From positions 345,238-409,237 of the forward strand of contig JAFDWQ010000003.1 in assembly GCA_018268395.1 (NCBI GenBank): a DNA stretch of 64,000 bases, read 5' to 3'. The DNA is from Armatimonadota bacterium. GTDB taxonomy: Bacteria; Armatimonadota; Fimbriimonadia; Fimbriimonadales; Fimbriimonadaceae. The notes under the pieces are model-generated. The model was given only the letters and a program-made list of their open reading frames with translations. It did no database searches and was not told the origin of the DNA. This document shows, piece after piece, positions 18,699 to 53,062 of this stretch. How positions within the stretch are numbered: the stretch's first letter is position 1; each line of letters starts with the position of its first letter. The translations under genes were made by a program, and so were the position numbers.

Positions 18699-18774
18699 TG
18701 GCAGGGGCGACAGGATTCGAACCCGCGACCTACGGTTTTGGAGACCGTCGCTCTACCGACTGAGCTACACCCCT
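18699..18774 (-). tRNA. trnW: tRNA-Trp (anticodon CCA)
   Basis: A complete cloverleaf is readable on the minus strand. The acceptor stem AGGGGTG pairs with CGCCCCT (one G-T pair); the D arm contains TAGCTCAGTCGGTAGAGC; the anticodon stem ACGGT/ACCGT encloses loop CTCCAAA with anticodon CCA; and the T arm contains GGTTCGAATCC. Discriminator G and an encoded CCA end follow, giving 76 bases. CCA reads the Trp codon UGG. Confidence 0.95.
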
Positions 18775-18868
18775 GCGGGAGGCAGGATTTTACCCCTGTC
18801 CTTCAGGCCATGGCGAAGTCCCGAAGGACAGGGTGGTCGTCAAGGACGGAGTTCGAACGACGTGAAGG

Positions 18869-19657
18869 TCAGTCGCAAACCCCGTACCACGTCCCCGACC
18901 AGCTTTGGTCGTTCGGTTCCCCCGACCGGTGCCCGCTCCTATCGACGACATGACTGTCGAAGGTTCCGTTTCCGGTCACGAACTTGGCGTGGCCGTCCGC
19001 GAAGATCACGGTCCCGCCCGTTCCCGACCATTGCCTGTAGTAGTCCGCAGGGCTGCCGCAGTCATAGCCATATCGGGCACACCCCGGATCCTTCTCCGAC
19101 GAGAAGAACGGGAACATCTCCGACCGGAGGATCCTCGACTCGGCCGGGAGGGCCATGGCCGTGGCGTTCACGAGGCGGTCGAAGTCGAGCACGTTGTTGT
19201 TCTGGGACGATTCGCCCTTGACGACCGAGTAAAGACAGGACGTGAACCGGTACGACGTGCCATATGCCTTCCAATAGCTGTCCGCACCGGGGACGTCCCG
19301 TTGCTGGTACGGGCTCCCGTTGTCCCAAGGCGACTTGAAAATGTCCTTGTTCTTCGCATAGGGCAACACCAAGAGCTCGGTGCCCTTGTGCGCGGGGTCG
19401 CCGTTGGGGGGAACGGAGTTGTAGGCATAGAAGATCGGCATCACGTCTTCGTTGTCGCCCAGATACATCATGACGGACATGCCGATCTGGCGGCCGTTGC
19501 TGACGCATGCCGTGTTCTTGGCCGCCGCCTTCGCTTGCGCGAACACGGGGAACAGGATGGCGGCCAGGATCGCGATGATCGCGATGACGACGAGGAGCTC
19601 GATGAGCGTAAAGGCCGCGGCGAGGCCGGTGCCCGGAGGGCGTGTCGTTGTTTTCAC
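18869..19657 (-). CDS. Type IV prepilin-like protein (DUF1559-like, Armatimonadota type)
   Basis: Start chosen at GTG 19657, with AGGA ten bases upstream; 262 residues. A short leader ([13 protein letters not shown]) precedes the class-III prepilin signal [19 protein letters not shown], with Glu at position +5. It normally ends GF but reads AF here. The stretch [20 protein letters not shown] and a [14 protein letters not shown] strand near the C-terminus are hallmarks of the large prepilin-like families of Armatimonadota and Planctomycetes. The protein is processed by prepilin peptidase and inserted in the inner membrane. A TPP riboswitch lies in its leader, an unusual association. Confidence 0.82.
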
Positions 19658-19676
19658 GAGGTCTGGTTCCTGCAAA

Positions 19677-19702
19677 CGCCGTCCCCGCGAATGTGGACGG
19701 CG
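19677..19702 (-). promoter_or_regulatory. Hairpin between TPP riboswitch and prepilin-like start
   Basis: CGCCGTCC and GGACGGCG form a perfect 8-bp stem with a 10-base loop. On the minus strand it ends a few bases (TTTGC) before the AGGA ribosome-binding site of the gene starting at 19657. It could be the expression platform of the riboswitch, hiding the ribosome-binding site or acting as a terminator, although only three T residues follow. Confidence 0.5.
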
Positions 19703-19725
19703 CTCTGTCAAGGGACCTTGCGTCG

Positions 19726-19819
19726 CCGCATTTCCTACGCCGGCATGACCCGGATCAGGTTCTAGGGGACAGTCCCGGCTCTACGGGATCGTCTCAGCCG
19801 CCTTCGGCACCCCCTGCGG
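19726..19819 (-). ncRNA. TPP riboswitch (THI element)
   Basis: On the minus strand the conserved core of the thiamine pyrophosphate aptamer is present in order: GGGGTGCC, GGCTGAGA, then GAACCTGATCCGGGT, ATGCCGGCGTAGGAA. The P1 ends CCGCA (19815-19819) and TGCGG (19726-19730) pair. The helix UCCCG...CGGGA between CTGAGA and GAACCTG fits the P3 arm. It faces the gene at 18869-19657 with a 68-base gap. TPP binding normally turns off thiamine synthesis or transport genes; none is in this window. Confidence 0.92.
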
Positions 19820-19896
19820 ACAGGCAGATTGCCCTTCTATGATATCGCAGGTCCCGCCCGACGGCCTCTTCTTCGGGCCTTGTCGGGCCCTTCGAC

Positions 19897-46644: not shown

Positions 46645-48012
46645 GTGAGGCGCGGCGGCTCGAAGCTCTTGGCGGCCCTTTGCGGGCTCGTCGTCCTGCA
46701 AGGCGCGTTCCACCAGGGACTGGTCTTCCCGACTTGGCGCAAGAACTACGCGCCGATCACCAACGGCGAACTGCGCGACCTGACGTCAGACCAGCTCCTG
46801 TTCGTCTTCGCCGGGTTCCGCGAACTCATCGCGGGCATCCTCTGGGTCAAGGCCGACAACTTCTTCGACGAGGGCAACTTCGACGCGATCCTCCCGATCG
46901 TCCGCCTCGTCACCCTTCTCGACCCGCACAACATCGACGTGTTCGACACCGGGATGTGGCACATCGCCTACAACTTCACGGACGAGGGCTCGCGCTCCGA
47001 CCGCCGGTACATCCCGAGCGCCGTCGCCCTCGGCGTCGAAGGCACCAAAGCGAACCCGAACACGTACGAGCTGTTCTATGCGACCGGGTGGCTCTACCAC
47101 CACAAGATCGAGGACGACTACGCCGACGCACAGAAGTGGTTCGAAGAGGCCGTCCAACGGACGGACATCACTCCGGCCCGGCGGAACATCCTCCAACTCG
47201 CCTATCAGCGCAACGGCCGCGTCGACAAGGCCGCGGACTACCTGTTCGAAGTCCTCGACAAGGCCGAGGCCCGCACCAAAGACCTGCGGGACTTCCAAGC
47301 GAAGCAGAACCGCGACGTCATCGAGAACAACCTGGACAGCCTCCTCGTCCGCATGGCCCAGCGCGGCTACTGGGCCAAGGGTCGCGGCGACTACGAACAG
47401 GGCCAATACGACACCAAGCCGCCGTTCGACGTCGGGTTCAGCGCACAGGTCACGGTCATCGAGCCGCAGGTCATCCGGGTCGAAGGCACGTGGAACGTCA
47501 TGCCCGTCGGGACGCGCGTCCGCGTGATCTTACGCGACAAGGACTTCAAGAACGCCGTGCCGGGCGGCATGAAGTGGTACCAAGGCGGCCAGGTCAACCT
47601 CGACCCGCCGAAGGACGAGACGTTCATGCAGGACCTGCTGTTCGTGAAGAACCAGCGGTTCAAGCGCGACATCGACATGTCCCGCGACCCGCTCATGTAC
47701 CCGTTCGTCACGGACAAGTACACCGTCGAGTTCTATTACAACCCGCGCCAGGCCCCGTCCTACATCCAGGACAAGTTCGGCTGGAGCGGCGAAGGGATGA
47801 CCGACAAGAACTACCTCAACACGGAGATCCGTGAAGGCCAGCGCGTCGTGTTCACGTCGATGGAGTTCTCGAAAGACGAACTGTTCCGTCGCGGACGGTG
47901 GAAGACCGAAGTCCCCGTGCGCCGCACGAAGAACTTCGCAGGCTTCGGCGTCAAGCAGCTCGATGACGACGTCATCAAGGTCCCTGGCCTCCTGTCCGAG
48001 CAGGGCGGCTGA
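46645..48012 (+). CDS. Membrane-anchored TPR-like protein of the ABC operon
   Basis: A 455-residue protein starting at GTG 46645 with GGGAGG upstream. One N-terminal membrane segment (about 7-25, KLLAALCGLVVLQGAF) leads to an extracytoplasmic helical region whose repeats resemble TPR units (FFDEGNFDAILPIVRLVTLL, ELFYATGWLYHHKIEDDYAD, AQKWFEEAVQRTDITPARRN). The C-terminal 200 residues are beta-rich (FDVGFSAQVTVIEPQVIRVE, KYTVEFYYNPRQAPSYIQDK). I recognise no named family. Co-transcription with an ABC-2 exporter suggests a partner protein outside the membrane; the substrate is unknown. Confidence 0.68.
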   Translation: MRRGGSKLLAALCGLVVLQGAFHQGLVFPTWRKNYAPITNGELRDLTSDQLLFVFAGFRELIAGILWVKADNFFDEGNFDAILPIVRLVTLLDPHNIDVFDTGMWHIAYNFTDEGSRSDRRYIPSAVALGVEGTKANPNTYELFYATGWLYHHKIEDDYADAQKWFEEAVQRTDITPARRNILQLAYQRNGRVDKAADYLFEVLDKAEARTKDLRDFQAKQNRDVIENNLDSLLVRMAQRGYWAKGRGDYEQGQYDTKPPFDVGFSAQVTVIEPQVIRVEGTWNVMPVGTRVRVILRDKDFKNAVPGGMKWYQGGQVNLDPPKDETFMQDLLFVKNQRFKRDIDMSRDPLMYPFVTDKYTVEFYYNPRQAPSYIQDKFGWSGEGMTDKNYLNTEIREGQRVVFTSMEFSKDELFRRGRWKTEVPVRRTKNFAGFGVKQLDDDVIKVPGLLSEQGG

Positions 48013-48033
48013 CGCCCGTACACCGAAAAGTCG

Positions 48034-48063
48034 ACAGGGACGCCTCGAAAGAGGCGTCCCTGT
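48034..48063 (+). terminator. Strong bidirectional hairpin terminator
   Basis: ACAGGGACGCCTC and GAGGCGTCCCTGT form a perfect 13-bp stem closed by a GAAA tetraloop. It lies 21 bases after the stop at 48012 and 24 bases before the convergent stop at 48088, so it can serve both genes. No long T-tract is present on either side (TGTTCGTC on plus). Confidence 0.75.
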
Positions 48064-48087
48064 GTTCGTCCGAGCGGCGGACGAGCG

Positions 48088-51310: not shown

Positions 51311-51410
51311 GGTGCCGGGAACTGCGCGGCAGACGTGCGGCGAACTCCGCCAGGGCTGGAAGGCAGCAACGGTAAGTCGTTTCGCTGTGCGACGCACCCT
51401 TCCCGGCATT
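51311..51410 (+). ncRNA. ffs: Bacterial small signal recognition particle RNA (4.5S)
   Basis: A single hairpin of about 100 bases. Ends TGCCGGGAA (51313-51321) and TTCCCGGCA (51400-51408) pair perfectly. The apical part carries the SRP domain IV motif: CCAGGGCTGGAAGGCAGCAACGG, comparable to the conserved CAGG...GGAA...AGCA of the Ffh-binding site with a GGAA tetraloop. Exact ends are uncertain by a few bases. Its place just upstream of dnaX matches many bacteria. It targets membrane proteins with Ffh. Confidence 0.88.
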
Positions 51411-51439
51411 CCCGACCGCGCGAGCGTCCGGCCAAGCCG

Positions 51440-53062
51440 ATGTCCCTCTACCGCAAGTACCGAAGCCAGACGTTCAGCGACCTCGTCGGTCAGGGGCACG
51501 TCGTCAAGACGCTGCAGAGCGCCATCGATCGCGGGCGCATCGCCCACGCTTACTTGTTCACCGGTCCGCGAGGCACGGGAAAAACGTCGACCGCGCGCCT
51601 GCTCGCCAAAGCGTTGAACTGCGAAAAGGGCCCCGCCGCGGAGCCGTGCAACGAGTGCCAGTCCTGCAAGGAGATCACGACGAACATCTGCATGGACGTC
51701 GTCGAGATGGACGCGGCGAGCGAGAGCGGGGTCGACGACGTCCGGCAGTCGATCGTAGAGGTCGCGGACTATCAGCCTGCAAGCTGCCGCTACAAGGTCT
51801 TCATCATCGACGAGGTCCACGACCTTTCGCGTCAAGCGTTCGACGCGCTGCTCAAGACGATCGAGGAGCCGCCCGGCCATGTCGTCTTCATCCTCGCGAC
51901 GACCGAGTACTCCAAGGTGCCGCCGACGATCCGCTCGCGCTGCCAGCGGTTCGAGTTCCACCGCGGTTCGATCCAAGACCTCGTCGGCCGATTGAAGTAC
52001 GTCGTCGAATCGGAAGGTTGGGAAGCCGAGCCGGCCGCATTGACGGCGATGGCGCGGGTGTCGGACGGCGGATATCGCGACGCTCTGACGCTCCTGGAGC
52101 AAGCGGCGCTCACGAGTCTGGACGGCAAGGTCACGCTCGACCAGGTCTACGAGCAGCTCGGTCTCGTCAACGACGAGACGATCGACCAGATCCTGACCGC
52201 GATGGCGGGCAAAGACGTGCCGACGTTGATGTCGTCGTTGGAAGAGGTCTATCGGAGGGGCAAAGACCCGCGCTCGTTGCTCGAATCGGTCTTGATCCGG
52301 TTGTCGGACCTGACCCGTGCGGCTTACGGCGTCGACGTCGGAGGTCTTCAGGATTCGGCGCAGGAGGCGGGGCTGAAGGCTTCCGCCGCGAACCTCGGGG
52401 CGCCGACACTTCTCGCTTATCGCGCCGCGCTCGCGGAAGCGCACCGCATGATCCGGGACGTGACGATCCCTCGGGTTTGGCTGGAGGCGGAGCTGATCCG
52501 GATCGCGAACGGGCCAAAAGCGGTTCCGGCCGTCTCCGAAGCGAAGTCTGAGCCTGTCCGAGCGGCCCGTCCTGCTCCTGTAGAGACCGTGCGCCCGGTG
52601 GAGACGGCCCGACAGTCCGCCTCGCCGGCAAAGCCGCAAGACGAGGCTCCGGTCAAAGCTGGCCCTGTCGCGGCCGCACCGGTGGTCGAAGCAACGGACG
52701 ATCCGGACCTCGCGGCGGCGAGGGGCCATTGGTCGGACGTCTTGGCGGAATTGTCCGAAGTCTCGGCCGTCGCCCGCGAGCGGCTCGCGAAGACGAGGGT
52801 CGACCGGGTCGAAGGTCGAGAGGCGATGGTGGAGTTTCCGAGCGCGATGATCCTGGAGATGGTCGTCGGCGGCAAGCTGGAGAAGGCGATCCGGGAGTGT
52901 TGGGCCCGGCGCTCCGGGGAGTCGTTGACCCTCCGTTTTTTCGCCGGGAGTAGGCCGTCGGCCCCGCAGGCCGAGGTCGAGACGGCGGCGGTAGAATGGG
53001 CGGCGGAGGGCGAACGCTTGTCGGAGTTGGTCCAAGAGGTGTTCGGCCCCTCCGGAGCTTGA
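51440..53062 (+). CDS. dnaX: DNA polymerase III subunit gamma/tau
   Basis: A 540-residue clamp-loader ATPase from ATG 51440 (the frame is open earlier but through the SRP RNA). Walker A is FTGPRGTGKTSTARLLAKAL at about residues 41-59. The zinc-binding cysteines are in CEKGPAAEPCNECQSC. Walker B reads VFIIDEVHDLSRQAFDALLK (DEVH, then D in place of M). Sensor 1 is ILATTEYSKVPPTIRSRCQR. The C-terminal region after 390 is rich in Pro, Ala and Glu, then has a domain III-V-like end. Order SRP RNA, dnaX, ybaB, recR is conserved in bacteria. Confidence 0.93.
   Translation: MSLYRKYRSQTFSDLVGQGHVVKTLQSAIDRGRIAHAYLFTGPRGTGKTSTARLLAKALNCEKGPAAEPCNECQSCKEITTNICMDVVEMDAASESGVDDVRQSIVEVADYQPASCRYKVFIIDEVHDLSRQAFDALLKTIEEPPGHVVFILATTEYSKVPPTIRSRCQRFEFHRGSIQDLVGRLKYVVESEGWEAEPAALTAMARVSDGGYRDALTLLEQAALTSLDGKVTLDQVYEQLGLVNDETIDQILTAMAGKDVPTLMSSLEEVYRRGKDPRSLLESVLIRLSDLTRAAYGVDVGGLQDSAQEAGLKASAANLGAPTLLAYRAALAEAHRMIRDVTIPRVWLEAELIRIANGPKAVPAVSEAKSEPVRAARPAPVETVRPVETARQSASPAKPQDEAPVKAGPVAAAPVVEATDDPDLAAARGHWSDVLAELSEVSAVARERLAKTRVDRVEGREAMVEFPSAMILEMVVGGKLEKAIRECWARRSGESLTLRFFAGSRPSAPQAEVETAAVEWAAEGERLSELVQEVFGPSGA

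Follow-up and report, generated by a model that had tools for sequence, protein, structure and literature searches.

A TPP riboswitch in front of a conserved prepilin-like gene in probably thiamine-auxotrophic Armatimonadota

The gene thiC is a textbook target of TPP riboswitches. Direct control of a pilin by a riboswitch is also known, as c-di-GMP riboswitches occur upstream of pilin genes; these respond to a different ligand from TPP, one that is a signal of life on surfaces and not of vitamin status. A survey of 564 TPP riboswitch sites in 249 bacterial genomes divided their targets into two categories, biosynthesis genes and transporter genes, and the word 'pilin' is absent from its main text (PMC3766115). 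In the literature that we searched there was no report of a pilin as a TPP riboswitch target, nor one that connected a TPP riboswitch with Armatimonadetes or Fimbriimonas, although subscription papers were thinly covered and the novelty is therefore provisional. According to its abstract, a study of Legionella found that the pilin PilA2 helps the bacterium to acquire iron, and that it does so without depending on piliation (PMC13170364). This resembles the case described here in that a pilin takes part in nutrient acquisition, which was established by experiment there and is proposed here. It differs in that the nutrient is iron and not thiamine, and the abstract mentions neither riboswitch control nor a vitamin-gene operon (PMC13170364). 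In Candida, a TPP riboswitch controls Dur31, a thiamin transporter of the SSF family (PMC5997356). As a TPP-controlled protein of the sodium:solute symporter type, Dur31 is comparable to the third gene of the cluster that we found in relatives of our genome, but it is eukaryotic and comes without a pilin.

The locus that we describe shares several properties with TPP riboswitch (THI element) regulons: its aptamer matches RF00059 above the cut-off, salvage genes follow in relatives, and in one related family (f2) the aptamer stands before thiC. Unlike in those regulons, the immediate and often sole regulated gene encodes a prepilin-like protein. With type IV pilins and the other prepilins of the phylum, this protein has in common the motif FTLIELL..., a long N-terminal helix and a pilin-like structural model. 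The TPP-linked family differs from them in having its own conserved C-terminal domain, in being single copy and TPP-regulated, and in having thiamine genes as neighbours. The riboswitch target is a new kind of thiamine regulon member, and the arrangement is real, conserved and surprising.

The riboswitch and its downstream gene

The DNA analysed here, referred to as the window, is a stretch of 64,000 nucleotides from contig JAFDWQ010000003.1 of an Armatimonadota bacterium (assembly GCA_018268395.1). The features that concern us, in the order in which they are read, are the following.

19714..19824, minus strand: TPP riboswitch aptamer (RF00059; cmscan 68.4 bits, cut-off 54.3, E 2.5e-11)
19674..19705, minus strand: hairpin GAGCGCCGTCC/GGACGGCGTTT between aptamer and ribosome-binding site, candidate expression platform
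19668..19671, minus strand: ribosome-binding site AGGA, 10 nt 5' of the GTG start, as read from the sequence
18869..19657, minus strand: gene for a 262-aa prepilin-like protein, single-copy member of the TPP-linked pilin family (PF07963; TIGR02532; family profile 441.9 bits)
18778..18830, minus strand: stable hairpin 3' of the pilin gene (-25.6 kcal/mol, z -3.5)
18702..18774, minus strand: tRNA-Trp (anticodon CCA; RF00005, 70.8 bits), not part of the system

A sequence-only reading of the window had proposed a TPP riboswitch on the minus strand, with a conserved aptamer core and closing stem, immediately preceding a prepilin-like gene that begins at 19657. All of this was borne out. In the Infernal search that had been suggested as a check, run as Rfam cmscan on the window, RF00059 matched over its full model (1-105) and exceeded the gathering score. 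The conserved core was found as GGCTGAGA, GAACCTGATCCGGGTCATGCCGG and GCGTAGGAA; the RF00059 alignment contains CUGAGA together with ACCUGAUC...GCGUAGGGA, the final motif being GCGUAGGAA, and P1 is closed by CCGCA/UGCGG (CCGCA/TGCGG in the DNA). The originally proposed span, 19677-19819, corresponds to the aptamer plus the hairpin 3' of it. The RF00059 score and the conservation across relatives described below rule out a chance or false aptamer. Judged by its sequence, this is an unremarkable RF00059 element, and it is predicted to bind TPP.

The genome (3.72 Mb) contains two TPP riboswitch matches. The second, at 58.9 bits, lies on the minus strand of another contig (locus L053, G000:C9:417074-417176) and has a deviating core, ATGACCGGATCTGG. 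It precedes a secreted-looking protein of 564-580 aa with a sub-threshold NHL match. Possibly this is a second thiamine-controlled surface protein, or the aptamer is a decaying copy. The window itself also encodes an ordinary bacterial small SRP RNA at 51313-51411 on the plus strand (RF00169, 56.1 bits).

The pilin gene opens with a GTG codon about 56 nt past the end of the aptamer model, and it ends at 18869. Its product scores above the cut-offs of two prepilin models, PF07963 (24 bits, cut-off 21.2) and TIGR02532 (25.6 bits, cut-off 16.3), and carries the prepilin cleavage-methylation motif with Glu5 and a hydrophobic helix. The equivalog models for ComGC, GspG and myxobacterial PilA scored 28.8, 26.2 and 27.2 bits, below their cut-offs of 75, 88.9 and 400, and these matches are confined to the N-terminal stretch. 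Beyond the N-terminus, the protein matched no Pfam or NCBIfam family, and a PDB sequence search matched its N-terminal helix and nothing further. The stable hairpin behind the gene (18830-18778) is the probable end of the pilin transcript, and past it the next feature in the same orientation is the tRNA-Trp gene. As these two elements come next, the pilin seems to be the sole gene of its transcript and appears to be monocistronic in this genome; no thiamine genes were seen among the ORFs neighbouring it in the window.

The hairpin between the aptamer and the ribosome-binding site had been put forward as a possible expression platform, which our analysis makes plausible. Its stem score was 26.4 versus 16.4 for shuffled sequences, none of 20 shuffles equalled it, and the 45 nt from 19668 to 19712 fold at -22.9 kcal/mol (z -4.3 versus dinucleotide shuffles). 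We scored the best hairpin downstream of the aptamer and upstream of the start codon in 95 leaders. In 72 of them no more than one of 20 shuffles equalled it, and in 37 leaders at least four of the seven bases past the hairpin were T. Textbook terminators, with a GC stem and T7, occur in several families (e.g., GCCGC...GCGGC TTTTTTTA in G092 and G093). The window hairpin is terminator-like, with a U-tract of only UUU. With a strong hairpin and a short U-tract, both termination and an effect on the ribosome-binding site are possible.

We also compared the pairing of the 3' strand of P1 with the hairpin to that in shuffled sequences. The advantage was weak (mean z -0.91; 16 of 72 leaders in the best 5% of shuffles), and cognate pairs paired no better than mixed, non-cognate ones, so that covariation did not provide proof of an antiterminator. 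An antiterminator of this kind is thus a plausible candidate. In leaders from the family to which the window belongs (e.g., L034, L050 and L028), the sequence GCAATCG is often found in the hairpin loop or 5' arm despite differing stems, and part of it is complementary to GATTGCG in the 3' strand of P1. Going by the way in which TPP riboswitches are known to act in bacteria, and by where the hairpin lies, the riboswitch of the window would be of the OFF type.

A single-copy pilin family across the phylum

To place the window among its relatives, we used a set of 61 genomes, consisting of its own genome and the 60 nearest ones. At least one TPP aptamer was present in 51 of them, mostly exactly one. 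In 41 of the 61, spread over dozens of genera, the aptamer lies directly before a gene coding for a prepilin-like protein of about 250-275 aa, and in nine genomes of family f2, which belongs to the same order as the window, it precedes thiC. A family profile was built from 17 aptamer-linked prepilins that are 51-64% identical to the window protein. In the 61 genomes this profile retrieved 42 genes from 41 genomes at 324-449 bits, whereas other prepilins reached at most 140 bits, and the best of these matched the profile in its N-terminal part only. Every genome contains 5 to 44 matching prepilins, among which the family member is single copy (in tandem in G038). The wide separation of the scores indicates one single-copy family that is defined by its C-terminal domain. 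The bimodal outcome of the search rules out that the window protein is just one of many prepilins.

Searching the phylum with the same profile (E 1e-60) recovered the family from 136 of 291 genomes. We examined 60 further pilin loci, of which 53 come from orders other than that of the window, and RF00059 scored over the cut-off directly upstream in 58. The exceptions are G115, where the aptamer reached 52.6 bits (E 3.8e-8), and G079, where there was none. In total, an above-cut-off TPP aptamer lies directly upstream of the pilin in 99 of 101 loci. As the pilin directly follows the aptamer in these 99 loci, a lost thiamine gene between the two is ruled out. Inspection of the same locus in related genomes, which the sequence-only reading had recommended, thus showed the riboswitch-prepilin arrangement recurring among the nearest genomes with no intervening thiamine gene. 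Of the two explanations which that reading had offered, the phylum-wide conservation supports a surface protein controlled by thiamine status. A scan of contigs yielded N-terminal homologues from Verrucomicrobia and other groups, with no family member among them.

Additional aptamers were seen elsewhere. At locus L048, two TPP aptamers are located 3.6 kb apart (G027:C29:51556-51665 and 47965-48076); the first of these, at 51556, falls slightly short of the cut-off (53.6 bits) and is followed by a seemingly broken or recombined prepilin remnant, and the other is followed by the intact pilin. At locus L040 (G009:C18:2989-3099), a second TPP aptamer of 56.9 bits is followed by a terminator-like hairpin with T7 and then by a 231-aa protein without a Pfam match.

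An AlphaFold model from the window protein and 26 distant prepilins (27 sequences) has a mean pLDDT of 68.6 and a poorly predicted C-terminus, with a helix at residues 18-68, four short strands and a small sheet. The best structural match to this low-confidence model is Thermus PilA4 (VIA-align; Z 5.0, rmsd 3.9, 115 residues), and all VIA-align matches are type IV pilins with Z of 5.0 or below. Foldseek returned nothing below E 6, and neither program recognised a ligand-binding fold in this model. Over 99 sequences, conserved residues of the C-terminal domain stand at 90-100%; among them, H90, G92, E94, Y100, D112, Y128, G133, S135, R175, R178, E180, Y196, W210 and D221 reach 96-100%. The domain is unusually constrained across the phylum, which argues for a specific function.

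Thiamine genes in pilin-bearing genomes

Homology clustering of all ORFs near the pilins identified the genes that recur beside them. The commonest neighbour is thiamine pyrophosphokinase, which lies directly downstream of the pilin in 27 loci and, by coordinates, in two more (G079 and G115), i.e., in 29 genomes. In the 27 loci, the kinase starts about -90 to +91 nt from the pilin stop codon, with a median of -1 nt. Its identity rests on PF04263 and on TIGR01378, which scored 129 and 150 bits in the two proteins tested (cut-off 76.4). The second commonest neighbour, a sodium:solute symporter of the SSF family, directly follows the kinase in 19 loci. These clusters are found in other families of the phylum and have the same orientation as the pilin. 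The orientation and spacing of the genes suggest co-transcription, and the riboswitch, pilin, kinase and symporter form an apparent TPP-regulated salvage operon. A thiamine gene under the control of the RF00059 element is accordingly seen in the relatives, as the kinase behind the leader-pilin unit, and none is seen in the window.

In the window's order the arrangement is different. Here, the kinase and the symporter are located away from the pilin, next to each other in 27 of the 29 genomes that have the symporter, and no riboswitch was detected before the separated kinase. The genome of the window has kept the kinase apart from the pilin (C3:64947-65525; 91.1 bits, over the cut-off); a symporter of the type seen in the operons was not found in it. 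The explanation that a thiamine gene had been lost and replaced by the prepilin is unsupported, since the same prepilin stands behind the aptamer in 41 of the 61 nearest genomes and the clustered thiamine genes come after it. A thiamine gene could be said to have left the operon, yet the pilin was already the first gene there.

Other possible transport genes were seen in individual genomes. At locus L035 (G004:C65), the TPP-controlled pilin is directly followed by an NMT1/THI5-like binding protein (PF09084, 99.7 bits) and then by more genes in the same orientation; this protein is a possible alternative importer of thiamine or of its pyrimidine precursor. The genome of the window has an NMT1-type binding protein with ABC genes at C1:355908, which may or may not import thiamine or a precursor. 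In a genome of family f4 that has the kinase and thiL and no pilin, a TPP aptamer (L019, G039:C33:2273-2380) precedes a small membrane protein that matches nothing in Pfam and may be another kind of thiamine-regulated transporter.

The distribution of the thiamine genes shows in which genomes the pilin occurs. In the phylum, thiC was found in 7 of the 136 pilin genomes versus 113 of the 155 without a pilin (Fisher 1e-35), and the kinase, counted at E 1e-15 or better, was present in 130 of the 136 versus 23 of the 155 (Fisher 1e-49); as the genomes are related, these counts are not independent and the figures are descriptive. The 61 nearest genomes display the same pattern. Ten of them have thiC (nine of family f2, and G016), and none of these is among the 41 pilin genomes; thiE scored over the cut-off in the f2 genomes and G016 alone, and thiL in the f2 genomes and G039 alone, in both cases in no pilin genome. 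The distribution of the kinase is the mirror image of that of thiC. Across the phylum, thiC and the pilin occur together in five to seven genomes, clearly in G061, G081, G082, G092 and G105, and as fragments in G093 and G134. We read this as the pilin accompanying thiamine auxotrophy and salvage. As would be expected of a salvage component, it has both same-strand adjacency to salvage genes and occurrence in salvage-dependent genomes. The kinase and symporter as operon partners and the near exclusivity with thiC refute the view that this prepilin has no link to thiamine. Two reduced genomes from the window's family (G031 and G157; 1.5 Mb) were observed in which neither the pilin nor the TPP kinase was found; G031 additionally lacks thiC, thiE and any TPP riboswitch match.

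A proposed role in thiamine acquisition

We propose that high intracellular TPP causes the riboswitch to shut off the prepilin-like protein, presumably by termination or occlusion at the hairpin, and that the protein is made when TPP is low. It would then be exported and processed in the manner of a type IV pilin or pseudopilin, with its specialised C-terminal domain most likely presented on the cell surface or within the periplasm. There it would help the cell to acquire external thiamine, as part of the salvage system of thiamine-auxotrophic bacteria. The vitamin would enter via the symporter or another transporter, and thiamine pyrophosphokinase would convert it to TPP, which would close the feedback loop.

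In our view, the pilin probably serves to acquire thiamine and is controlled by TPP. The genomic context, as read from sequence, strongly supports its regulation and its membership of the pathway; direct capture of thiamine by the pilin is our inference. In the most specific form of this proposal, the pilin itself is a receptor for the vitamin. As a minor pilin or pseudopilin regulated by TPP, it would bind thiamine with its C-terminal domain beyond the inner membrane and pass it on to the cell. We advance this form tentatively, as it may well prove incorrect.

The pilin could also act without contacting thiamine: it might build or modify a pilus with which the cell attaches to, touches or moves towards neighbours or surfaces that produce thiamine, and thiamine shortage would trigger this behaviour. 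Pilin genes are classical adhesion genes, the protein has type IV pilin architecture, and thiamine auxotrophy makes neighbours a source of the vitamin. Nevertheless, the pilin of relatives heads a cluster with the kinase and symporter instead of pilus genes, its family remains single copy beside the many other prepilins of each genome, and the constraint on its C-terminal domain extends over the phylum, which together make this explanation unlikely.

We consider it less likely again that the protein is a pseudopilin-like factor that helps to assemble or energise an export or uptake machinery resembling type II secretion, which might, for example, release an extracellular thiamine scavenger or hydrolase encoded elsewhere. 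The matches of the N-terminal helix to GspG, ComGC and pilin models would fit such a factor, as would the tie between the regulon and thiamine that the salvage cluster provides, but no secreted enzyme recurs at the locus, where the kinase and symporter are the only widespread partners. Finally, the absence of the kinase behind the pilin in the window's order and the unproven termination switching in the window could suggest that the riboswitch belonged to the kinase operon, with the pilin a bystander and the aptamer kept by inertia in this lineage, but this is very improbable, because a neutral leftover would have decayed, whereas the order has retained an above-cut-off aptamer and a 51-64% identical pilin over dozens of genera with the kinase elsewhere and no riboswitch detected before it.

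A role in thiamine acquisition thus remains our preferred explanation for the TPP-linked pilin. Its linkage to the aptamer, its position at the head of salvage clusters and its near confinement to genomes without thiC suggest that vitamin B1 uptake includes a surface component which, according to the searches made, has not been described. This would assign a function to one class of prepilins in genomes where dozens of them are unexplained. It also raises the question of whether type IV pilin-like proteins can capture small nutrients. If the pilin is indeed a thiamine receptor, type IV filament proteins would offer a new way of taking up a vitamin, and one that is conserved throughout the phylum.
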